From positions 824,501-888,500 of the forward strand of contig NC_012034.1 of NCBI RefSeq assembly GCF_000022325.1: DNA of 64,000 nt, written 5' to 3'. A program made the position numbers and the translations under genes. Source of the DNA: Caldicellulosiruptor bescii DSM 6725. Its GTDB lineage: Bacteria; Bacillota; Thermoanaerobacteria; Caldicellulosiruptorales; Caldicellulosiruptoraceae. This document shows, piece after piece, positions 3,164 to 12,515 of the stretch. The notes beneath the pieces are model-generated. The model was not told the DNA's origin. It was given only the letters and a program-made list of their open reading frames with translations, and did no database searches. Position 1 is the stretch's first letter. Each line of letters begins with the position of its first letter.

Positions 3164-3213
3164 AATGGTCGGGATGACAGGACTTGAACCTGCGACCTCC
3201 TGGTCCCGAACCA
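3164..3213. repeat. att repeat, left copy (3' half of tRNA-Pro)
   Basis: 50 bp identical to 12437-12486. Read on the - strand it is the 3' part of tRNA-Pro(CGG), from the anticodon stem through the CCA end. The left copy diverges immediately after the shared block, so it is a tRNA fragment left by integration and not a working gene. It marks the left boundary of the inserted element. Confidence 0.95.
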
Positions 3214-3240
3214 AGTAGTTATTTGAATAAATGAAAGAAA

Positions 3241-3273: not shown

Positions 3274-3435
3274 TTATGAGGGATGCTTTTCTAACTCTTC
3301 AAGGTATTTTTGAATAATAGTCAACACAAAATTACTCAAAGTCCTGTTTTCTTTGTTGGCCATCTCTTGAAGCTTTTCTCTCAATTCTCTTGGCATTGTT
3401 ACAAGTACACGAGTATTTTTCTTTGACACAGCCAT
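3274..3435 (-). CDS. Ribbon-helix-helix (CopG/Arc-type) DNA-binding protein
   Basis: A 53-aa protein read from the complement: it begins MAVSKKNTRVLVTMPREL and continues through RTLSNFVLTIIQKYLEEL. A short beta strand with basic residues (RVLVTMP), then helix, turn (NKENRT) and helix match the ribbon-helix-helix fold of small repressors. An AAGGTG ribosome site precedes the ATG. A near-perfect promoter lies 38-66 bp upstream (3473-3501) and overlaps the promoter of the rightward operon. It is the likely local regulator of that divergent pair; this role is inferred. Confidence 0.8.
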   Translation of the reverse strand: MAVSKKNTRVLVTMPRELREKLQEMANKENRTLSNFVLTIIQKYLEELEKHPS

Positions 3436-3472
3436 TCAATCACCTTCTTACAAAGTCTTTGTTTACTATTTG

Positions 3473-3501
3473 ATTATATCACTCTAATACACTCTTGACA
3501 A
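3473..3501 (-). promoter_or_regulatory. Leftward promoter for the RHH gene
   Basis: Complement reads TTGTCA (3496-3501), a 17-bp spacer, TATAAT (3473-3478). Its -35 box overlaps the -35 box of the rightward promoter. Confidence 0.85.
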
Positions 3502-3530
3502 TAGGTGTTACACAGTGTATAATAGTGATA
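3477..3530. promoter_or_regulatory. Candidate operator: 16-bp inverted repeat across both promoters
   Basis: Arms 3477-3492 and 3515-3530 match at 14 of 16 positions as an inverted repeat, roughly centred on the shared -35 region, and each arm covers or abuts a -10 box. The dyad makes the two promoters near mirror images. A dimeric or tetrameric repressor bound here would control both directions; the RHH protein encoded beside it is the obvious candidate. Confidence 0.6.
3495..3523 (+). promoter_or_regulatory. Rightward promoter of the element's left operon
   Basis: Consensus sigma-A promoter: TTGACA (3495-3500), 17-bp spacer, TATAAT (3518-3523). Transcription should begin near 3530, about 25 bp before the first gene. 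Confidence 0.88.
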
Positions 3531-3554
3531 CAAAACTATAGGGAGATGGTGAAG

Positions 3555-3761
3555 ATGTACAAAGAAATATATAACCAGCTTTGGGATATGCGTTCAAGCC
3601 TTATTGACTATTGCGACAAGATGGATGAGTTTATGAAAAAAGTACTTGAAGAAGGTGAGAGAGATTTAGTAATAGCTCTTAAAAATGAACTTGAGTGTGC
3701 AGTTACTGTTGTAAACATGCTTATGAGTAAAATTTTTTACAAAGCCATATATCAAAAATAA
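3555..3761 (+). CDS. Hypothetical 68-aa element protein
   Basis: Not recognised. A short, mostly helical, acidic-to-neutral protein starting MYKEIYNQLWDMRSSLIDY, with no cysteine pairs, signal peptide or membrane segment. ATG 3555 is preferred over an upstream in-frame TTG that lies inside the promoter; GGGAGATGG (3541-3549) serves as ribosome site. First gene of the rightward operon, followed 18 bp later by an RHH-like gene. It could be a small regulatory or structural accessory protein; no function is assigned. Confidence 0.6.
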   Translation: MYKEIYNQLWDMRSSLIDYCDKMDEFMKKVLEEGERDLVIALKNELECAVTVVNMLMSKIFYKAIYQK

Positions 3762-3779: not shown

Positions 3780-4262
3780 ATGCCAAAGGTAACAGTGAAC
3801 ATACCTAAGCCAGTCTATGACAAGCTTTGTAAACTTGCAGTTGAAGGCAGGACTTTGGACGAGATTGTAACCCATGCAAGTGGAATTTTGATTGACACTA
3901 TAAGAAGAGCTACCAAAAGAGAGTTAGAGACAGCTCACTGGTTTACAATTGCTTCTGCCATTGATATGGATTACAGAAAGCTTTTGATTGCATTTTTAGA
4001 CCAAGGCACAGAGCTATTCTCATCAGTCTTTATAAAGAACCTCAAAGTTGGAAATAACAGAGAAACTTCTCAGTGTTTAAGAACTCTCATATTGCTTGAG
4101 TACTTGAAAGAGTGTATACACAATGAAGGTATTGTAAATCTGGTAGAGCTCAGATATCCACCTTTGGATGAAGAACTCAAGTTTTGGCAGGACAAAGGCT
4201 TTACAATTCCAGAGAACATACTTCTAAAATCCAATTCAGAAAGCGAGGCGGTTTATCAATGA
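3780..4262 (+). CDS. Hypothetical protein with RHH-like N-terminus
   Basis: A 160-aa protein. The N-terminus MPKVTVNIPKPVYDKLCKLA resembles the beta strand and first helix of ribbon-helix-helix proteins, followed by GRTLDEIVTHASGIL. The remaining ~120 residues are helical and unrecognised. The GGGGAGCGTG ribosome site before ATG 3780 is clear. Its stop overlaps the start of the next gene (ATGA at 4259-4262), so translation is coupled. It may bind DNA in the element's regulation or maintenance; that rests only on the N-terminal pattern. Confidence 0.6.
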   Translation: MPKVTVNIPKPVYDKLCKLAVEGRTLDEIVTHASGILIDTIRRATKRELETAHWFTIASAIDMDYRKLLIAFLDQGTELFSSVFIKNLKVGNNRETSQCLRTLILLEYLKECIHNEGIVNLVELRYPPLDEELKFWQDKGFTIPENILLKSNSESEAVYQ

Positions 4263-4561
4263 TAACAATTGAGAAAGCTCAAACAAATGATGTATTTGAA
4301 AAAGTCTTTTCGCAGCTAACAGTTGACCTTGTAAGCTATAGGTCTAACGAGATTTTAAAAGACCCAGAGTATTTAAAGACAACAGGCAAAATTGATATCC
4401 TTGAGGCAAAGCTCAAAGAACTGATGAGTAAAGAAGCTTTAGAAATTTACACAGAGATTGAAGAACTCCAGAACTACCTATGTGCAATTTATGAACTTCA
4501 CGGTTACAAACAAGGTCTCAAAGATGGTGCAAAACTGACAGTAAAGCTTTTGGCAGAATAG
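4259..4561 (+). CDS. Hypothetical 100-aa helical element protein
   Basis: Starts at ATG 4259, overlapping the previous stop by four bases; a longer in-frame extension exists but lies inside that gene. The sequence (KIDILEAKLKELMSKEALEIYTEIEELQ) suggests a helical hairpin or coiled coil, and the C-terminus carries YKQGLKDGAKLTVKLL. Small proteins of this look (a coiled pair of helices plus a G-x-K-D-G motif) occur on Firmicute mobile elements with no known function. An imperfect hairpin follows the gene (4574-4602). Confidence 0.6.
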   Translation: MITIEKAQTNDVFEKVFSQLTVDLVSYRSNEILKDPEYLKTTGKIDILEAKLKELMSKEALEIYTEIEELQNYLCAIYELHGYKQGLKDGAKLTVKLLAE

Positions 4562-4573
4562 AAGCTTATGTTG

Positions 4574-4602
4574 GAGCCGATGGGGTGAGAACCTGTCGGC
4601 TC
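4574..4602. other. Intergenic hairpin
   Basis: GAGCCGA (4574-4580) pairs perfectly with TCGGCTC (4596-4602) around a 15-nt loop. There is no strong T-tract after it, so it is more likely a processing or attenuation element within the operon than a full terminator. Confidence 0.45.
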
Positions 4603-4628
4603 TTAAATACAAGTGAAGGAGGTTGACT

Positions 4629-5279
4629 ATGAAGGCAGAGGCGTTATTATATCTCAAGGCTGCTGAAAGAACAATTGCAAGCTTTTTATCTGAACAAAAA
4701 ATGGACAAGCCAGCAGGGCAAAGCATAGAAGAGATACTCAAAAAAACTGTTTTCTATCTGATCAGGTATATAAACACCAAACCAAAAACTGATTTTACGA
4801 CAATGGAAGATGTAGAAGCTGCTCTTTCACTGCAAACTTTGGCCTTACAATTTATTGCTCAAATGACACCAAAACAGTTTTTAAACATCTTCCCTATCAG
4901 GAAATTTTACAAGGGTAGCAAGTATTCAACCAAAGATTACTACACAACAAAAAAAATGCTCAGCAAAGTTGATATGAACAGTCCTATTGGTGACAAGGTT
5001 ATTGATTTTTTATGGGATTATGCCAATGACGACATAGAAGAATTTCTTGTAAGATACATGGTCACAGTCAGCAAATTAAGAAGATTTGAAGGCAAACCAT
5101 CCCTTGCTGAAGAGATGGCAAAAGAACTTGGGCTTAAAACTTATAGATTGTATCAAAGCAGCAATGGCAAAAAGTTTTTGCTTGATGAAGAAACAGGCAG
5201 AACTATAAGAGTTAAAGAAAGACCAAAACATTTGAAACTGATAAAAGGCAGGGGTAGGGGGGAGTCAAAAATTTTGTAA
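4629..5279 (+). CDS. Hypothetical 216-aa element protein
   Basis: Not recognised. ATG 4629 follows an excellent AAGGAGG ribosome site (4616-4624); an in-frame TTG six bases upstream falls inside that site. The protein is largely helical, without membrane segments. The middle has FLNIFPIRKFYKGSKYSTKDYYTTKKML and the C-terminus is very basic (KERPKHLKLIKGRGRGESK), which suggests nucleic-acid contact. It closes the element's left operon and is followed by a strong terminator at 5343. Confidence 0.6.
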   Translation: MKAEALLYLKAAERTIASFLSEQKMDKPAGQSIEEILKKTVFYLIRYINTKPKTDFTTMEDVEAALSLQTLALQFIAQMTPKQFLNIFPIRKFYKGSKYSTKDYYTTKKMLSKVDMNSPIGDKVIDFLWDYANDDIEEFLVRYMVTVSKLRRFEGKPSLAEEMAKELGLKTYRLYQSSNGKKFLLDEETGRTIRVKERPKHLKLIKGRGRGESKIL

Positions 5280-5342
5280 AAAGCTTATGGATCGCGCGGG
5301 GCAAGTCAGCGCGCAAAAAGTTCCCTTTATTTCGCAAAAGGG

Positions 5343-5370
5343 GGTATCCTTATTTGGGGATACCTTTTTT
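5343..5370 (+). terminator. Rho-independent terminator of the left operon
   Basis: GGTATCC (5343-5349) pairs with GGATACC (5358-5364), followed directly by six T residues. It lies 64 bp after the preceding stop. Confidence 0.9.
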
Positions 5371-5402
5371 GTTGCAAACACATAACAAGATTATGACAAA
5401 AT

Positions 5403-5432
5403 TCGACATAAAAGCTTTGCATATAGTATAAT
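5403..5432 (+). promoter_or_regulatory. Promoter upstream of the TerS-like gene
   Basis: TCGACA (5403-5408), 18-bp spacer, TATAAT (5427-5432), about 35 bp before the start at 5467. Confidence 0.6.
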
Positions 5433-5466
5433 CATAGTAAGAACATAAGTTTGAGGTGATTTCAAA

Positions 5467-5949
5467 ATGCCATACTATGACTGGGAAAGTTTAAAACGTG
5501 AGTTTATGCTTGGAGATTTCAAGACTCTCAAAGAGTTTGCACAGGCTAAAAATATAAGCTATGGATTTTTGAGAAACAAAGCAAAAGGCTGGACTCAGGA
5601 GAAAAGACAACTTAGCAAAACCAAGAGTCAGCTTGTGGTTGAAAAGACATTGCAAAAACAAATAGAAAAAGCAAGCGACTACAATACTTTGCATGTTGAG
5701 TTTTGGGACAGGCTTCTTGACTTGGTGTGGCAGGCTTTGCATGATGAGAAAACCATCAAAACCAAGGATGGCAGAATAAACATTTATGCACTTGAAAAGC
5801 TGGCTTTGGTGGTTGAGAGGGTGCAAAAAGGACAGAGACTTGCTCTTGGACTTGATGAGAAAAACTCAAATCAACCGCAGATTGAAGACAGTATTAGAGA
5901 ACTTATCAAAGCACTTCATGAACCAGATGAGCCTTCTGTTTTAAACTAA
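5467..5949 (+). CDS. TerS-like / helix-turn-helix element protein
   Basis: A 160-aa protein. The N-terminus (DWESLKREFMLGDFKTLKEFA, then AKNISYGFLRNKAKGWTQEK) looks like the helix-turn-helix of phage terminase small subunits, where a Trp-ending basic segment follows the recognition helix. The central and C-terminal helices include ALEKLALVVERVQKGQRLALGLDE, also reminiscent of TerS oligomerisation regions. No large terminase is present; satellites that hijack a helper phage typically carry only terS. The call is tentative; it could instead be another DNA-binding regulator. The start follows TTTGAGGTGATTTCAAA. Confidence 0.45.
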   Translation: MPYYDWESLKREFMLGDFKTLKEFAQAKNISYGFLRNKAKGWTQEKRQLSKTKSQLVVEKTLQKQIEKASDYNTLHVEFWDRLLDLVWQALHDEKTIKTKDGRINIYALEKLALVVERVQKGQRLALGLDEKNSNQPQIEDSIRELIKALHEPDEPSVLN

Positions 5950-5979
5950 GCTTGCAATATAAGGAGTGGCAATAAACAA

Positions 5980-6912
5980 ATGCAGCAGTCAGAAAAAAGA
6001 CAGTTTGCCAAGGTACAAAGCCAGCTTTTAATTGTCGACAACCTGAAGCTTGTGTATCATGTTGCAAATAAATTTATGCCATGTCCAAAGGGCTATTACT
6101 ATGAAGTTGATGACCTTGTCAGTGAAGGGTACATTGGACTTGTTGTTGCAGCAAAGAACTATGACCCTGCCAAAGGCAGTTTTTCAACCTATGCTTGCAA
6201 GGTGATTGAGAGCAAGATAAAAAGAAGCTTGCCAAAATACGAGTTATCTTGTGCCATCTCTTTGGACAGTCCAGTATCAAAAGAACCCGAAGAAGATACA
6301 TCTACAGTTGCAGATATAATCTCAGATGGTTATTCAGTCGAAAGCGAAGTGATTAGGAAAGACACAGTCCAAAAGCTACATAGGTATTTTGCCATCTTAA
6401 CCGAAGAGGAAAAAGAAAGAGTCTTATATTACATCTCCACAGGAAAGAATTTACCTGCCAGTGATAATGTGTTCAAAAAAGCAAGAAGAAAGATAATAGC
6501 CAAGATGAGACAAGAACAGTTTGAGGCAGACCTTGACGACTTGACAGTGTTTATATCCTGCCCAGCTGTGCATATAGCAAGTGGTAGTAATTTTGGCTAT
6601 TCACCAGTTGAGGCAACTGTTATTGATAGAGAAGAGAAAAGAAAACAGCTTGAGGTTTTGTCTGCAATACCACAATTGGACAAGCTGAGGGTTTTAAAAC
6701 AACAAGGCGAACAGGACAGAATGAAACTTCTTGTTGCCAAGTGGGAAGTAGAAGAGTTTATAGAACGCAACTGGGATAATCTCACAATCCAGAATGCAAG
6801 GCTTTTGCAGGACTATTTTGTGTATTGTCTTTCCCATCTTTCAATGGTACAAAAGTATGGCAGCAAGTACAGAGAGCAAATAAAAAGAGTGGTCAAAAAG
6901 TTAGCTTTGTAA
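5980..6912 (+). CDS. Sigma-70-like regulator encoded by the element
   Basis: A 310-aa protein whose first ~100 residues match sigma-70 region 2: NLKLVYHVANKF, DDLVSEGYIGLVVAAKNYDP and GSFSTYACKVIESKIKRSL. A diverged middle part (TEEEKERVLYYISTGKN, FKKARRKIIAKM) may stand in for region 4, and ~130 extra C-terminal residues match nothing I recognise. It probably redirects host RNA polymerase to element promoters, or is a recombination or replication regulator built on a sigma fold. The gene ends 12 bp before the first repeat array. Confidence 0.7.
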   Translation: MQQSEKRQFAKVQSQLLIVDNLKLVYHVANKFMPCPKGYYYEVDDLVSEGYIGLVVAAKNYDPAKGSFSTYACKVIESKIKRSLPKYELSCAISLDSPVSKEPEEDTSTVADIISDGYSVESEVIRKDTVQKLHRYFAILTEEEKERVLYYISTGKNLPASDNVFKKARRKIIAKMRQEQFEADLDDLTVFISCPAVHIASGSNFGYSPVEATVIDREEKRKQLEVLSAIPQLDKLRVLKQQGEQDRMKLLVAKWEVEEFIERNWDNLTIQNARLLQDYFVYCLSHLSMVQKYGSKYREQIKRVVKKLAL

Positions 6913-6924
6913 AAATTTTTTCTT

Positions 6925-7072
6925 GCGAAAAAAGCGAAAAAAGCGAAAAAAGTCTTGAGAATAGGAATATCAAGGTTTTTAGTATACCTACTTTTTTCGC
7001 AGCTATTGCGAAAAAAGTTCAGAAAAAGCCTAAAAACCTTGTGGCGACTGAATTACAACCTTGCGAAAAAAG
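6925..7072. repeat. Left GCGAAAAAA repeat array with nested palindromes
   Basis: Three exact tandem copies of the 9-mer GCGAAAAAA (6925-6933, 6934-6942, 6943-6951). Then comes an 11-bp-arm palindrome built from two opposed copies (6991-7001 with 7007-7017), then one more copy at 7063-7071. A second, 12-bp inverted repeat (6971-6982 with 7030-7041) surrounds the inner palindrome, so the block can fold as a nested cruciform. The array is mirrored at 11265-11373. It resembles iteron or operator DNA. Confidence 0.85.
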
Positions 7073-8670
7073 TGTGAAAAAAGTCCATATACCCTATAGG
7101 GGGTATAAAACTTTGGTATATCCCCCCACCTTGACAAGTAGGCAAGCCATCTTGAGACCGGCGGGCCCAGCTCCAAAAACCTGCGATTGACACGCACACG
7201 AGGGGGGTTAAACAAAAAAGGTTAAAAAACAAACAAAATTTCGCATTTTAGCTTAAAAAGTCTGAAATAATTTTAAAATTGCTTAAAACATTGCAATTTT
7301 AAAGAGGCTAAAAAGCTTTCACAGGACAAAAAGGAAAGACAGAGAACAGATACAAAATTTCAAAAGATCATTTTGAACCTTTGAAACATTCACAGCATAG
7401 CCAGTAATTTAAATGTTCAAATTGAACCTTATAATTCCTTTCCAGTAATTCCATTCTTACCATCGTTTATAAGCACATCAAAATGGCAAGATGGTATTTT
7501 ATATTCCCCTATCTCATTCTGCACGTTGTAGAGACTTTAAAAGCGCTTTGAGAAGGTTGTCAAACGTGTCAAATGCAAAGTTTAACGTGACAGGTTGACA
7601 ATTTAACAGAGCTGATTTTGACCGCAGCGGTCAAAGTGGAACAAGCTTAACAACCATCGAGAAAAGATTAACAGGTTAACAGTTTTAAATTGTCAAGAAG
7701 TGTCAAATTGTTTTATAAACGCTGTCCTGTGTTAAGAAATGTTAAGGTAAGCTACAGCTTTGACCTCTCTTTAAAGCTTATCAACCTTGGCACATCTCAA
7801 AATGGCAGTTATTCAAGTTTAACAGCCGATGAAATTCGTTGTCTGTTTTCAGCCAAGCCGACGAAATTCGTATGCTTGAACATGCTAACAAATGCTAACC
7901 TTTGGAGAAGACTCTACAAAGGGTATTCTAACTTGGAACATCCTAAATACAGGGTGTCGAAATTCACGACACCCCATAAACTATTCGGAAATTTCGGAGT
8001 CCCTAAAAAAAGAGCAACATAAAACTTACAATTTTGCAGTTCCTAAAAGGTGACTTCCTAACTTGGAAAGTCATTTTAAAGGGGAATGGACCTATAAATC
8101 CTTGTAGTTTTTCAATCAGGACCAGCGCGCTGGGGTTTGCATATGTGACCGCAAGTTTTCAATGTCTTTTGGAGCTTGTCTGTTCTTTGCAGGCTTTAGT
8201 TTAAACTCCAGAATTTTGAGCAAAAAGCTACTTAGTAAAACTTAAGGTTTGTTAAGGTTTTGAATTTGATAAAACTTGAGAAAACTGGAGGTTTTGCATT
8301 TGGGTGACTTGCTGACAAGTAAAAAGTGCAACTAACAGTCGCACTTTTACCAAAAAATTTTTAAACTGCACTTACAAATAGGAAATTAATTAGCATAACT
8401 TGAAATAAAACCAAAATTCATATCTAATAGTTGGCAATAAAGACAGACAAAATACATATTTGGACGATTTCTGATTGCACAAAACTATATTTTTGCGCAA
8501 TATAATAACAATGATTTCTTTGTTTACAAGTGTATAAAATACGTATTTATTTTTTATTGTTCCCACTTGATTTGGCAAATTTTTTGTGATATATACAATA
8601 TTGTATATGGGACAGTCACAAAGTGAGACAACCTATATACGGCACAAAATAAATGTTTGGAGGTGATATT
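7073..8670. other. 1.6-kb noncoding region, candidate replication or regulatory zone
   Basis: No ORF with a ribosome site was found on either strand. It holds several perfect palindromes: 7617-7635 (9-bp arms TTTGACCGC), 7952-7974 (8-bp arms GGGTGTCG), CCAGCGCGCTGG at 8122-8133, and a hairpin at 8322-8348. It also has recurring short words (TAACTTGGAA, GCTAAC, CCTAA) and AT-rich tracts near 8360-8600. It lies between the left repeat array and the Xre/PrimPol genes, the place expected for an origin and control region. Nothing here proves function. Confidence 0.5.
8591..8608. promoter_or_regulatory. Perfect 18-bp palindrome, probable Xre operator
   Basis: ATATACAATATTGTATAT is a perfect dyad 62 bp upstream of the Xre-family gene. 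Xre/Cro-type repressors commonly bind such dyads in their own promoter region. Confidence 0.6.
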
Positions 8671-8883
8671 ATGAACATTCTTGAAAAACTCAGAAGGGAA
8701 AGAAATTTGAGTATTTCTAAGGTATCTATAAAAACGGGGCTCAATTACAACATATTGTGGCAGGTCGAAAAAGGGTATAGGAAGGCATACCCAAGAATGA
8801 TGAAAGCTCTATCTGAATTCTATGGGGTTGCTGTAAATGAGATTTTTGAAGATGATGGGACTCCCAAAGTTGTCAACAGATAA
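8671..8883 (+). CDS. Xre-family helix-turn-helix regulator
   Basis: A 70-aa single-domain HTH_3 protein. Helices 1-2 span EKLRRERNLSISKVSIKTGL, the recognition helix is NYNILWQVEKGYRKAYP, and the end is MMKALSEFYGVAVNEIFED, a typical Cro/C1 layout. ATG 8671 follows GGAGGTGA (8659-8666). A perfect 18-bp palindrome lies upstream, so it probably autoregulates and controls the downstream replication genes. It is the likely lysogeny-type switch or copy regulator of the element. Confidence 0.88.
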   Translation: MNILEKLRRERNLSISKVSIKTGLNYNILWQVEKGYRKAYPRMMKALSEFYGVAVNEIFEDDGTPKVVNR

Positions 8884-9033
8884 GGAGAGAGGAATCCAAA
8901 AATTTTGAGTTTTGAAGGAGAAAATTTAAAAAATTTTGAGTTTTGCCTTAAGACAATATTACAAAATGGTAAACACATTGTCAACTAAATGAAACATTTT
9001 TATGAAAATTAAACAAAAAGGAGGTGTAATACT

Positions 9034-9897
9034 TTGAGTAGTATTGGAAAAAACTACAATAGAATGTTAAGAGCAGCGATTGCTTACGTAGAAAAGTTGA
9101 ACTGGGCTGTTTTGCCCCTGCATTCTGTGATAAATGGCAGTTGTACCTGTGGAAAAAAAGATTGTACAAGCGCAGGCAAACATCCCATCGGTGAGATTGT
9201 ACCTAATGGAGTGAAAGATGCCACAAAAGATATCAGCAAAGTAAAAGAATGGTGGCTCAAAAAGCCATGGGCTAATATTGGTATCGCAACTGGTAAGATA
9301 TCTGGATTCTTTGTTTTGGATGTTGACGGTGAGATAGGGAAGGAAGAATTGAGAGCTCTTGAAGTTGAATACGATAAGCTACCTGATACTGTTGAACAGT
9401 TAACAGGTAGTGGAGGTAAACATATTCTCTTTAAATATCCCGAAAATATTGTAATACAAAACAAGGTAGGCTTTATTCCTAAGGTAGATATTAGGGGCGA
9501 TGGAGGTTACATTGTTGTTGCTCCATCTATTCATAAAAGTGGCAATCAATACATGTGGGAAGCTTTCAGCCACCCATTGGAGGTTGAGATAGCTGAGCCT
9601 CCAAAATGGTTGATTGATATGATAGCCGAAAAGCCTTCAACACCAGATGGAAAAAGACCACCTGAATGGTGGAGAAAATTAGCACAAGGCGTACCAGAAG
9701 GCTACAGAAATATGTCGGCAGCCTCTCTTATGGGGCTGTTGCTGAGGAAGAGGATAAATCCTGTTTTAGCTACTATGCTGGTTATAGCATGGAATAGAGA
9801 ATTCAATAAGCCACCAATGGATGATAAAGAAGTTATAAGAATATGTGAATCAATAGCCAAAAGAGAGGTACAAAGACTAAAGGAGGGAATGAAATAA
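9034..9897 (+). CDS. Bifunctional DNA primase/polymerase (PrimPol)
   Basis: A 287-aa archaeo-eukaryotic primase superfamily protein. A Cys-rich insert (CTCGKKDCTSAGKHP, residues ~37-51) is typical of bacterial PrimPols on mobile elements. The metal-binding DxD lies at 96-98 (VLDVDG), the nucleotide-binding GSGGKH at ~125-130, and the third motif in VDIRGDGGYIVVAPS at ~151-165. TTG 9034 is the start because AAGGAGGTG (9018-9026) lies at proper spacing. It overlaps the next gene by one base (TAATG). The pair would prime and unwind element DNA during replication. Confidence 0.9.
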   Translation: MSSIGKNYNRMLRAAIAYVEKLNWAVLPLHSVINGSCTCGKKDCTSAGKHPIGEIVPNGVKDATKDISKVKEWWLKKPWANIGIATGKISGFFVLDVDGEIGKEELRALEVEYDKLPDTVEQLTGSGGKHILFKYPENIVIQNKVGFIPKVDIRGDGGYIVVAPSIHKSGNQYMWEAFSHPLEVEIAEPPKWLIDMIAEKPSTPDGKRPPEWWRKLAQGVPEGYRNMSAASLMGLLLRKRINPVLATMLVIAWNREFNKPPMDDKEVIRICESIAKREVQRLKEGMK

Positions 9898-11252
9898 TGA
9901 GCAACATCATAGAACTTGAGACACTTTTAAATTCAGCTCAAAACAATCAAGAGTTTGAAGATTTGGACAATATAGAGATAAAAGAATTTCCTCAGCCTAT
10001 GCCTGCAGAGGTATATCGAGGAATGGTAGGTACTATTGTAAAATATCTTGAAAACTTTACTGAAGCAGCTCCTGAAGCTTTGCTTATCAACTTATTGGTA
10101 GTATTTGGTGCCATTGTTGGGAAGGAAGCATGGATAGAGGTAGGAGGCGACAGGCATTATCCAAATCTCTTTGCTGTCTTGGTAGGAGATACTGCAAGTG
10201 GACGAAAAGGGTCAAGTTGGTCAATTATTGAAAGGGTATTGGAGAAAGCTGACAAAAATTTTGTATTAAACAATTTAAGAAATGGTACAGTGTCAGGTGA
10301 GGGTATTATATATCATGTCAGAGACCCTATTTTCAAGTGGGACAAGAACTCTGAGACTTATGAAATGATAGACCCCGGCGTTGAGGATAAGAGGTTACTT
10401 ATTATTGAGTCTGAGTTTGCCTCTCTACTTAGGGTTATGAAAAGAGAAGGGAACACAATTTCTCCATTGTTAAGGAATGCATGGGATGGCAAATACAAAT
10501 TAGAGACACTCTCAAAAACAAATTACACAAAGGCAACTAATGCTCATATCTCATTGATTGGGCATATAACGTTTGATGAACTGAAAAAAGAATTATCAGA
10601 CGTTGAGAAAATGAACGGTTTTGGCAACAGGTTTTTATGGGTATGTACACGAAGAAGCAAACTGTTACCTAATCCACCGTTATTACCAGAGGACAAGCTT
10701 ACAGGTTGGGGATTATTATTAAGAGAGAGTATTTCAAAAGCACCAAAAGGTTTAATTACAAAAACTCCTGCAGCTGAAGAAGCTTGGGCACTTATATATG
10801 AAAAATACGCAGACAAGGGAGAAGGTGAGACAGCGGCTTTAATAGGCAGGGCAGAAGCACAGATTTTGAGATTAAGCCTAATATATGCTTTATTAGATGG
10901 GAGCGAGAAAATTACTCATGAACATATATGCACTGCAAGGTTGGTGTGGGAGTACTGTCAAAAATCTGTTGAATTCATTTTCAGTGAATTCAACAGAGAA
11001 AAAGAAAGCTCAATGGTTTTAAATTTATTGAGCGCACTAAAAGAAAAACCATTGAGCCAAAGCGAAATTTATGAGGTTTTCAACAAACATATCAATGCCA
11101 AGAAAATGGCTTATTTGCTAAAAAAGATGAGTACAAAAGGTTATATAGAAGCAAAGAAAGAAAGAAGCAACGGCCGACCAAAAACACGCTGGTACATTAC
11201 ACCACTTGGTCTAAAGAAACTGGAATCTTCTAATATCGATTTTGCTTCTTAA
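9897..11252 (+). CDS. DUF3987-type ATPase/helicase-like replication protein
   Basis: A 451-aa protein resembling the DUF3987 proteins that accompany PrimPol on phages and plasmids. It has the conserved PEALLINLLVVFGAIVG segment, an unusual P-loop-like stretch (VLVGDTASGRKGSSWS, ~residues 98-113) and an acidic Walker-B-like IIESEF. The C-terminal winged helix ends in ERSNGRPKTRWYITPLG. The P-loop has GRKGSS where GKS/T is expected, so the ATP-binding mode is uncertain. It starts at ATG 9897 within the PrimPol stop and probably serves as replicative helicase or initiator. Confidence 0.75.
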   Translation: MSNIIELETLLNSAQNNQEFEDLDNIEIKEFPQPMPAEVYRGMVGTIVKYLENFTEAAPEALLINLLVVFGAIVGKEAWIEVGGDRHYPNLFAVLVGDTASGRKGSSWSIIERVLEKADKNFVLNNLRNGTVSGEGIIYHVRDPIFKWDKNSETYEMIDPGVEDKRLLIIESEFASLLRVMKREGNTISPLLRNAWDGKYKLETLSKTNYTKATNAHISLIGHITFDELKKELSDVEKMNGFGNRFLWVCTRRSKLLPNPPLLPEDKLTGWGLLLRESISKAPKGLITKTPAAEEAWALIYEKYADKGEGETAALIGRAEAQILRLSLIYALLDGSEKITHEHICTARLVWEYCQKSVEFIFSEFNREKESSMVLNLLSALKEKPLSQSEIYEVFNKHINAKKMAYLLKKMSTKGYIEAKKERSNGRPKTRWYITPLGLKKLESSNIDFAS

Positions 11253-11264
11253 CAAATTTTGCAG

Positions 11265-11373
11265 AGGGACTTTTTTCGCACTTTTTTCGCAGAGCTTTGC
11301 GAAAAAAGTCCCTACCTCAAACCCTTGAAAATCCTGTTTTTTAGAGTTTTTTCGCTTTTTTCGCTTTTTTCGC
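11265..11373. repeat. Right GCGAAAAAA repeat array, mirror of the left array
   Basis: A 15-bp-arm perfect inverted repeat (11265-11279 with 11299-11313) carries opposed copies of the 9-mer, with another inverted copy at 11282-11290. Three tandem copies in the reverse orientation (TTTTTTCGC at 11347-11355, 11356-11364, 11365-11373) follow. The triple arrays at the two ends face each other across ~4.4 kb that includes the replication genes. It sits directly upstream of the integrase gene and may also affect its expression. Confidence 0.85.
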
Positions 11374-11422
11374 AGGAAAAAGTTTTTTGAATATACGTTC
11401 GCTATAAGGGGGTTGGTTTTCA

Positions 11423-12400
11423 ATGCAATATCACAGTACTACAAATTTTGGACTAACATTTTCTCAATGGTTAGATATTTGGATGAATCAATTCATGAAA
11501 ATTAAACTGAGACCTACAACCTATTCAAGCTATATTCAGCTTATAAACAAGCATATAAAACCCAAACTGGGTCATATTCAGCTTCAAAATTTATCCCCTT
11601 TGGCTATTCAAGAGTGTTACAATAGCCTTTTACTTGAAAACCTTTCACCTAAAACAGTTAAGAACATTCATGTAATTATCCACAGTGCTCTAAAACAAGC
11701 TATAAAATGCGGCTACATAAATCAAAATGTATCTGAGGCAGTAGCACTACCCAAAGTTGAACGTCCAGAAATAAAAACTCTCTCTTCAGAGCAAGTAACA
11801 ACATTTTTGCAAGCTGCCCAAACAGACTCTCTTTATCCTGCATTTTTGTTAGAGCTTTATACAGGTCTCAGGCGAGGCGAACTGTTAGGGCTAAAATGGG
11901 ATGACATAGACTTTGATAATTGTACCATTCACGTTAAAAGGTCATTAGTTAGAGTATATGACCACAATTTGAAAAAAACAACACTCCTTCTCCAGCCACC
12001 TAAGACCAAAGCAGGTTATAGAGTTATACCAATTCCAGACTTTGTTGTTGCAGAATTAAAAGAACTCTATGAGGAACATCAAAGGATAAAATTATCCCAG
12101 CCTAACTTTAACTCTTTAAATTTGATGTTTGTTACTACTCAAGGAACACCTATCGACCCAAGGAATTTTGAGAGAAAATTTAAACAACTTCTCAAAAAAG
12201 CCAATTTGCCAAACATCAGGTTACACGATTTGAGGCATACTGTGGCTACCTTGCTATTGCAGCAGAACGTACATCCCAAAATTGTCCAAGAAATCTTAGG
12301 GCATAGAGATATCTCAACCACGTTGGATATTTACAGTCACGTTAACATTGAGCTAAAGAAAAAAGCTACATCTTGCTTAGTAGAAATCCTGAATTCGTGA
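11423..12400 (+). CDS. int: Tyrosine site-specific integrase
   Basis: A 325-aa phage-type integrase. The N-terminal SAM-like core-binding domain (LTFSQWLDIWMNQF, PTTYSSYIQLINKHI) is followed by the catalytic domain with Arg150 (TGLRRGELLGL), His268-x-x-Arg271 (LHDLRHT), His294 (LGHRDISTT) and nucleophile Tyr304 (LDIYSHV); all catalytic residues are present. ATG 11423 has a GGGGG ribosome site. The gene lies 36 bp from the right att repeat and catalyses integration into, and excision from, tRNA-Pro. Confidence 0.95.
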   Translation: MQYHSTTNFGLTFSQWLDIWMNQFMKIKLRPTTYSSYIQLINKHIKPKLGHIQLQNLSPLAIQECYNSLLLENLSPKTVKNIHVIIHSALKQAIKCGYINQNVSEAVALPKVERPEIKTLSSEQVTTFLQAAQTDSLYPAFLLELYTGLRRGELLGLKWDDIDFDNCTIHVKRSLVRVYDHNLKKTTLLLQPPKTKAGYRVIPIPDFVVAELKELYEEHQRIKLSQPNFNSLNLMFVTTQGTPIDPRNFERKFKQLLKKANLPNIRLHDLRHTVATLLLQQNVHPKIVQEILGHRDISTTLDIYSHVNIELKKKATSCLVEILNS

Positions 12401-12436: not shown

Positions 12437-12486
12437 AATGGTCGGGATGACAGGACTTGAACCTGCGACCTCCTGGTCCCGAACCA
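12437..12486. repeat. att repeat, right copy (within tRNA-Pro)
   Basis: 50 bp identical to 3164-3213. Here the sequence continues into the 5' half of the tRNA, so this copy forms the working gene. It marks the right boundary of the element. Confidence 0.95.
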
Positions 12487-12515
12487 GGCGCTCTACCAAG
12501 CTGAGCCACATCCCG
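12439..12515 (-). tRNA. tRNA-Pro (anticodon CGG)
   Basis: A 77-nt cloverleaf on the - strand. The acceptor CGGGATG pairs with CATCCCG, with discriminator A and encoded CCA. The anticodon stem CCTGG/CCAGG carries loop TTCGGGA, giving anticodon CGG for codon CCG. The T arm contains GGTTCAAGTCC. The element integrated into its 3' half and restored it, leaving a fragment at 3164. Confidence 0.97.

Follow-up and report, generated by a model that had tools for sequence, protein, structure and literature searches.

Near the left end of an integrated element, within the 64-kb stretch of DNA analysed here (the window), two sigma-70-type promoters point away from each other from a common -35 region. 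Is this pair a switch in its own right, or is it the target of a regulator encoded beside it? We favour the latter, with a probability of about three in four: the control region is probably divergent and autoregulated, with a small RHH protein repressing both the element and itself and a dyad lying over the promoters serving as its operator.

The element is ~9.3 kb long, is integrated in tRNA-Pro(CGG) and carries PrimPol and DUF3987 genes together with a putative integrase gene (Table 1). The integrase was assigned by sequence only, whereas the families of the other rightward genes come from Pfam and PHROG profiles. The 3' part of the tRNA is duplicated at the left end of the element (att), and the tRNA was the sole match in an Rfam search. 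Window 12437-12486 matches the left end of a homologous element in another genome of the genus, G010, at 98% over 50 bp, and on its left that element joins tRNA-Pro sequence in the same way. The first protein of the rightward series (68 aa), which is 81% identical in G010, is predicted to form a two-helix hairpin (pLDDT 93) and has no Pfam or PHROG family. A structural model of the 160-aa protein was too poor for use (pLDDT 49).

Table 1. Features of the control region and of the element (window coordinates)
Feature	Position	Strand	Basis and remarks
att remnant, ~50 bp of tRNA-Pro 3' part, left end of element	3168-3217	.	duplicated sequence at both ends
RHH-type DNA-binding protein, 53 aa, candidate autorepressor	3274-3435	-	profile match, sequence
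Leftward -10 TATAAT	3473-3478	-	sequence; expected start ~3466-3467
Leftward -35 TTGTCA	3496-3501	-	sequence
Rightward -35 TTGACA	3495-3500	+	sequence; 3496-3500 common to leftward -35
Rightward -10 TATAAT	3518-3523	+	sequence; expected start ~3530
Dyad left arm	3474-3493	.	17/20 complementary to right arm; axis 3503.5; near-identical in G010
Dyad right arm	3514-3533	.	near-identical in G010
Ladder unit L1 TATCACTCTA	3477-3486	+	direct repeat with L2, left arm
Ladder unit L2 ATACACTCTT	3487-3496	+	direct repeat with L1, left-hand side
Ladder unit R1 TATCACTATT	3530-3521	-	right arm
Ladder unit R2 ATACACTGTG	3520-3511	-	right-hand side
Ladder unit R3 TAACACCTAT	3510-3501	-	weaker third unit, outside right arm
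68-aa all-helical protein, first of rightward gene series	3555-3761	+	ORF and SD
Remaining rightward genes, start	3780-12400	+	160 aa; 100 aa (DUF6809); 216 aa (phrog_6329); terminase-small-like
Remaining rightward genes, continued	3780-12400	+	sigma region 2 protein; HTH; PrimPol; DUF3987; tyrosine integrase
Tyrosine integrase-like ORF	11423-12400	+	assigned from sequence
tRNA-Pro(CGG), intact; right boundary of element	12439-12515	-	tRNA search

The rightward genes probably do not form one transcript, because a second strong promoter-like site (5403-5432, 11/12; TCGACA-18-TATAAT) lies ahead of the terminase-like gene at 5467. The protein encoded at 5980-6912 contains sigma-70 region 2 (PF04542, E 3e-14; phrog_351); Pfam matched no further sigma region in it. 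Just ahead of the HTH and PrimPol genes, 1.7 kb without convincing genes (6913-8650) contain repeated GCGAAAAAAG words and several inverted repeats (6918-7092); this stretch is a candidate replication origin. The gene block at 3780-6912 has a second copy in the same genome (G000:C1:1106500-1120500, locus L070). The 160-aa, 100-aa and terminase-like proteins of this copy are 98-99% identical and the sigma-like protein 95%, whereas identity falls to 77% for the 216-aa protein encoded between them, which suggests recombination between elements. In the homologous G010 element (L021, 7246-8505), an insertion with a transposase-like gene interrupts the 216-aa gene, and a similar transposase-like gene lies at a truncated 160-aa gene in locus L071.

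The rightward promoter matches the consensus at 12/12 positions with a 17-bp spacer and is the best of 41 promoter-like sites in the 12 kb scanned. The leftward promoter scores 11/12, also with a 17-bp spacer, and has TG preceding its -10 box. The first-pass annotation had read these as TTGACA-17-TATAAT and TTGTCA-17-TATAAT with five -35 bases in common (3496-3500), and both observations hold. The -10 boxes are 40 bp apart and the expected starts ~64 bp apart. Both divergent genes have good ribosome-binding sites, that of the RHH gene being AAGAAGGTGA (3449-3440). Back-to-back overlapping promoters, each of at least 11/12, occur once in the window and not at all in 40 dinucleotide shuffles of the 64 kb. 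The perfect-hexamer version of the pair occurs once in this 2.93-Mb genome (2,931,662 bases in three contigs) and zero to one times per genome among 12 genomes of the genus. Given a good -35 box followed by A, the five-base overlap is almost free, because TTGACAA is nearly its own reverse complement; what is improbable is that both TATAAT boxes are perfect and correctly spaced, and that the dyad is there as well. At the sequence level this is an overlapping opposed pair of the P22 Pant/Pmnt and pLS20 Pr/Pc kind. 5' RNA-Seq has been described for C. bescii (GSE163475; PMC8579813).

The same annotation had described a 14/16 inverted repeat that makes the two promoters mirror images. The repeat is present, and over its full arms reaches 17/20, but it does not relate the promoters to each other. 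Its axis lies 5.5 bp from the promoter axis (3498.0), and under the dyad the leftward -10 box falls on TACAAA (3529-3534) and the rightward one on CTAATA (3484-3489), so that neither -10 box is carried onto the other. Complementarity extends to 20 of 30 flanking positions about the dyad axis, compared with 12 of 30 about the promoter axis. A by-product of promoter symmetry is thereby ruled out; because the axes differ, the dyad, which overlies both promoters, is distinct from them and needs its own explanation. The window contains two inverted repeats that reach 17/20 or better with a spacer no longer than 30, whereas 20 shuffles of the 64 kb gave 0.15 on average. The other one is centred at 11032.5, within the DUF3987 gene, and is likewise above shuffle expectation.

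The dyad consists of a ladder of TATCACT/ATACACT units in 10-bp steps, two on the left and three on the right, inverted to each other. This asymmetric ladder lies half a helical turn away from the symmetry axis of the promoters. Counted from the expected starts, CACT-like words lie at about -13 to -16 and -23 to -26 of both promoters, with one further word at -3 to -6 of the rightward promoter only. At up to three mismatches, the 17-bp two-unit motif is found in the 64-kb window only at the two dyad arms, and in G010 the dyad motif occurs only at the same place. The 33 genome matches to the 17-mer AGTGTATAATAGTGATA were rejected as further relatives, being about the chance number for 257 Gb.

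Such 10-bp spacing would suit RHH dimers, and one of the two divergent genes encodes an RHH-type regulator, as the first-pass annotation had proposed. The 53-aa protein has an RHH domain by profile (RHH_5, PF07878; E 3.7e-11, 43 bits against a Pfam cut-off of 26, residues 8-48) and matches a PHROG Arc-like repressor family (1.6e-9). The conserved 10-bp-stepped units overlie its promoter and are, from the sequence, a candidate operator. The RHH protein AmrZ reads two half-sites, separated by a 5-bp linker, as a dimer of dimers (PMC3325190), and half-site reading with a short linker would be compatible with the 10-bp steps seen here. However, the 10-bp units within each arm are direct repeats, whereas those in the Arc, CopG and AmrZ operators are inverted, which counts against our reading.

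Conservation of the dyad could be assessed in one pairwise comparison, because G010 is the only other genome with close relatives of the RHH gene, the intergenic region and the 68-aa gene. The RHH gene, the dyad and the 68-aa gene co-occur, in the same two genomes only. Between these genomes the dyad is nearly unchanged, with two substitutions at 3469-3531. Over 3467-3533, 4 of 67 positions differ: 3487 and 3509 inside, and 3468 and a change in A-run length at the edges. By comparison, 30 of 123 third codon positions in the flanking genes (P = 0.0008 against the dyad region) and 10 of 52 UTR positions (P = 0.026) have changed. No further close relative of the RHH protein was found among genome contigs, viral contigs, phages, plasmids and 398 genomes of the phylum.

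Distant RHH relatives are encoded on cyanobacterial plasmids; in two of the three records examined, the gene lies immediately ahead of a primase gene, and the adjoining genes in the two cases encode a P4-type primase and a PriCT-2 protein. On Nostoc plasmid NZ_CP091918.1 (L079, 1393-1488), four CTTC(A/T)GAAG repeats, 27-29 bp apart, lie within the 100 bp directly upstream of the RHH gene beside the PriCT-2 protein gene. These repeats are probably the operator array of an RHH relative.

In the autoregulated control region that we propose, leftward transcription from the promoter pair would express the RHH gene, and rightward transcription the main gene series of the element. A single RNA polymerase would be expected on the pair at a time because the -35 boxes overlap, and the first-pass annotation's claim to this effect fits the anatomy, mutual occlusion following from the overlap geometry. 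RHH dimers would bind the units side by side over the dyad, blocking both promoters, limiting RHH synthesis and silencing the element. The rightward promoter is probably held tighter, because it has three units (one over -6 to -3) where the leftward promoter has two. It is tempting, though doubtful, to go further and see the 2+3 ladder as a minimal one-protein switch, in which low levels of RHH protein would shut the main promoter while its own was spared or favoured, and higher levels would then shut its own.

Overlapping promoters might instead act alone as an intrinsic switch, polymerase exclusion giving alternative states and the RHH protein doing no more than biasing the outcome. The common -35 boxes and near-equal consensus strength agree with this. 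In addition, pLS20 conjugation uses overlapping divergent promoters, although of unequal strength and with a regulator, as one layer of a real switch (PMC4207663). However, overlap yields competition, not memory. Five bidirectional promoters of E. coli, whose geometry is tighter, had so little basal activity that competition between polymerases did not matter (PMC12825309); the decisive element here is therefore likely to be the RHH protein and not the overlap. The offset of the dyad from the promoter axis and its conservation also point to a protein-bound operator, and we consider an intrinsic switch unlikely. The E. coli promoters studied by Warman and Grainger resemble the present pair in giving two divergent transcripts with mutually exclusive polymerase binding (presumed here), but they share or overlap their -10 elements and their starts are 10-23 bp apart (PMC12825309). 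Here the -35 boxes are shared and the starts ~64 bp apart; since the -10 elements are not shared, the pair is not a bidirectional promoter of that type.

Another protein of the element or of the host might bind the dyad, with the RHH protein acting elsewhere. The XRE-like HTH protein (8653-8883), which is encoded in the same element and conserved in G010, would be one candidate and the 160-aa protein another. However, a search for direct and inverted repeats upstream of the HTH gene found none, and genes like that for the 160-aa protein are present in loci lacking such a dyad. Seven loci of the genus (L070-L076) carry the downstream module of 160-aa, 100-aa, 216-aa, terminase-like and sigma-like proteins with neither an RHH gene nor a convincing dyad match; a single three-mismatch motif match in L075 is at chance level. 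For this reason they could not extend the operator comparison. The RHH gene and the dyad, in contrast, adjoin and co-occur, making another ligand quite improbable.

In a further reading, the RHH protein would bind the dyad as a centromere or iteron, for partition or replication, and control of the promoters would be secondary. RHH proteins such as omega and ParG function in segregation, and ORF56, to which the RHH protein is weakly related in sequence, is part of the minimal pRN1 replicon together with a PrimPol-type protein. We nevertheless regard this reading as highly improbable: the element proteins that were scanned included no recognisable ParA/ParM-like product, the repeats overlap the promoter boxes and form no separate array, and the repeat-rich, gene-poor 6913-8650 is a better origin candidate.

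Autorepression through the dyad would have close parallels. At immI of phage P22, Pant and Pmnt are under the control of the RHH repressors Mnt and Arc. As here, divergent overlapping promoters, with an operator (here a candidate) inside them, separate the gene of an RHH repressor from genes of the mobile element, but P22 has two RHH proteins, of which Mnt is larger and has a tetramerisation region. The Pr/Pc pair of pLS20 likewise consists of overlapping divergent consensus promoters on a Gram-positive mobile element, and its regulator RcoLS20 represses the main operon and controls itself, as the RHH protein may do here. In pLS20, however, the -10 box of one promoter coincides with the -35 box of the other, RcoLS20 is not described as RHH (the present regulator is RHH_5), and DNA loops between operators (PMC4207663), whereas no second operator was seen here. 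ORF56 of pRN1 (55 residues; PDB 2K9I) is a small CopG-type RHH protein in a replicon with a PrimPol gene, and is proposed to bind its own promoter, as we propose for the RHH protein. Its match to the latter is weak (E 0.007), and it is cotranscribed with its PrimPol gene (PMC3869888), whereas the RHH gene here is divergent.

The arrangement is most likely, by analogy with P22 Pant/Pmnt, pLS20 Pr/Pc and the CopG/ORF56 autorepressors, classic on/off control of a kind already known. As a control region of a mobile element it is compact and open to test, combining a candidate operator and repressor with two near-perfect promoters; the host is heat-loving, Caldicellulosiruptor-like and probably extremely thermophilic. 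The region might find use as a regulated promoter pair, and it points to what probably keeps the element quiet.
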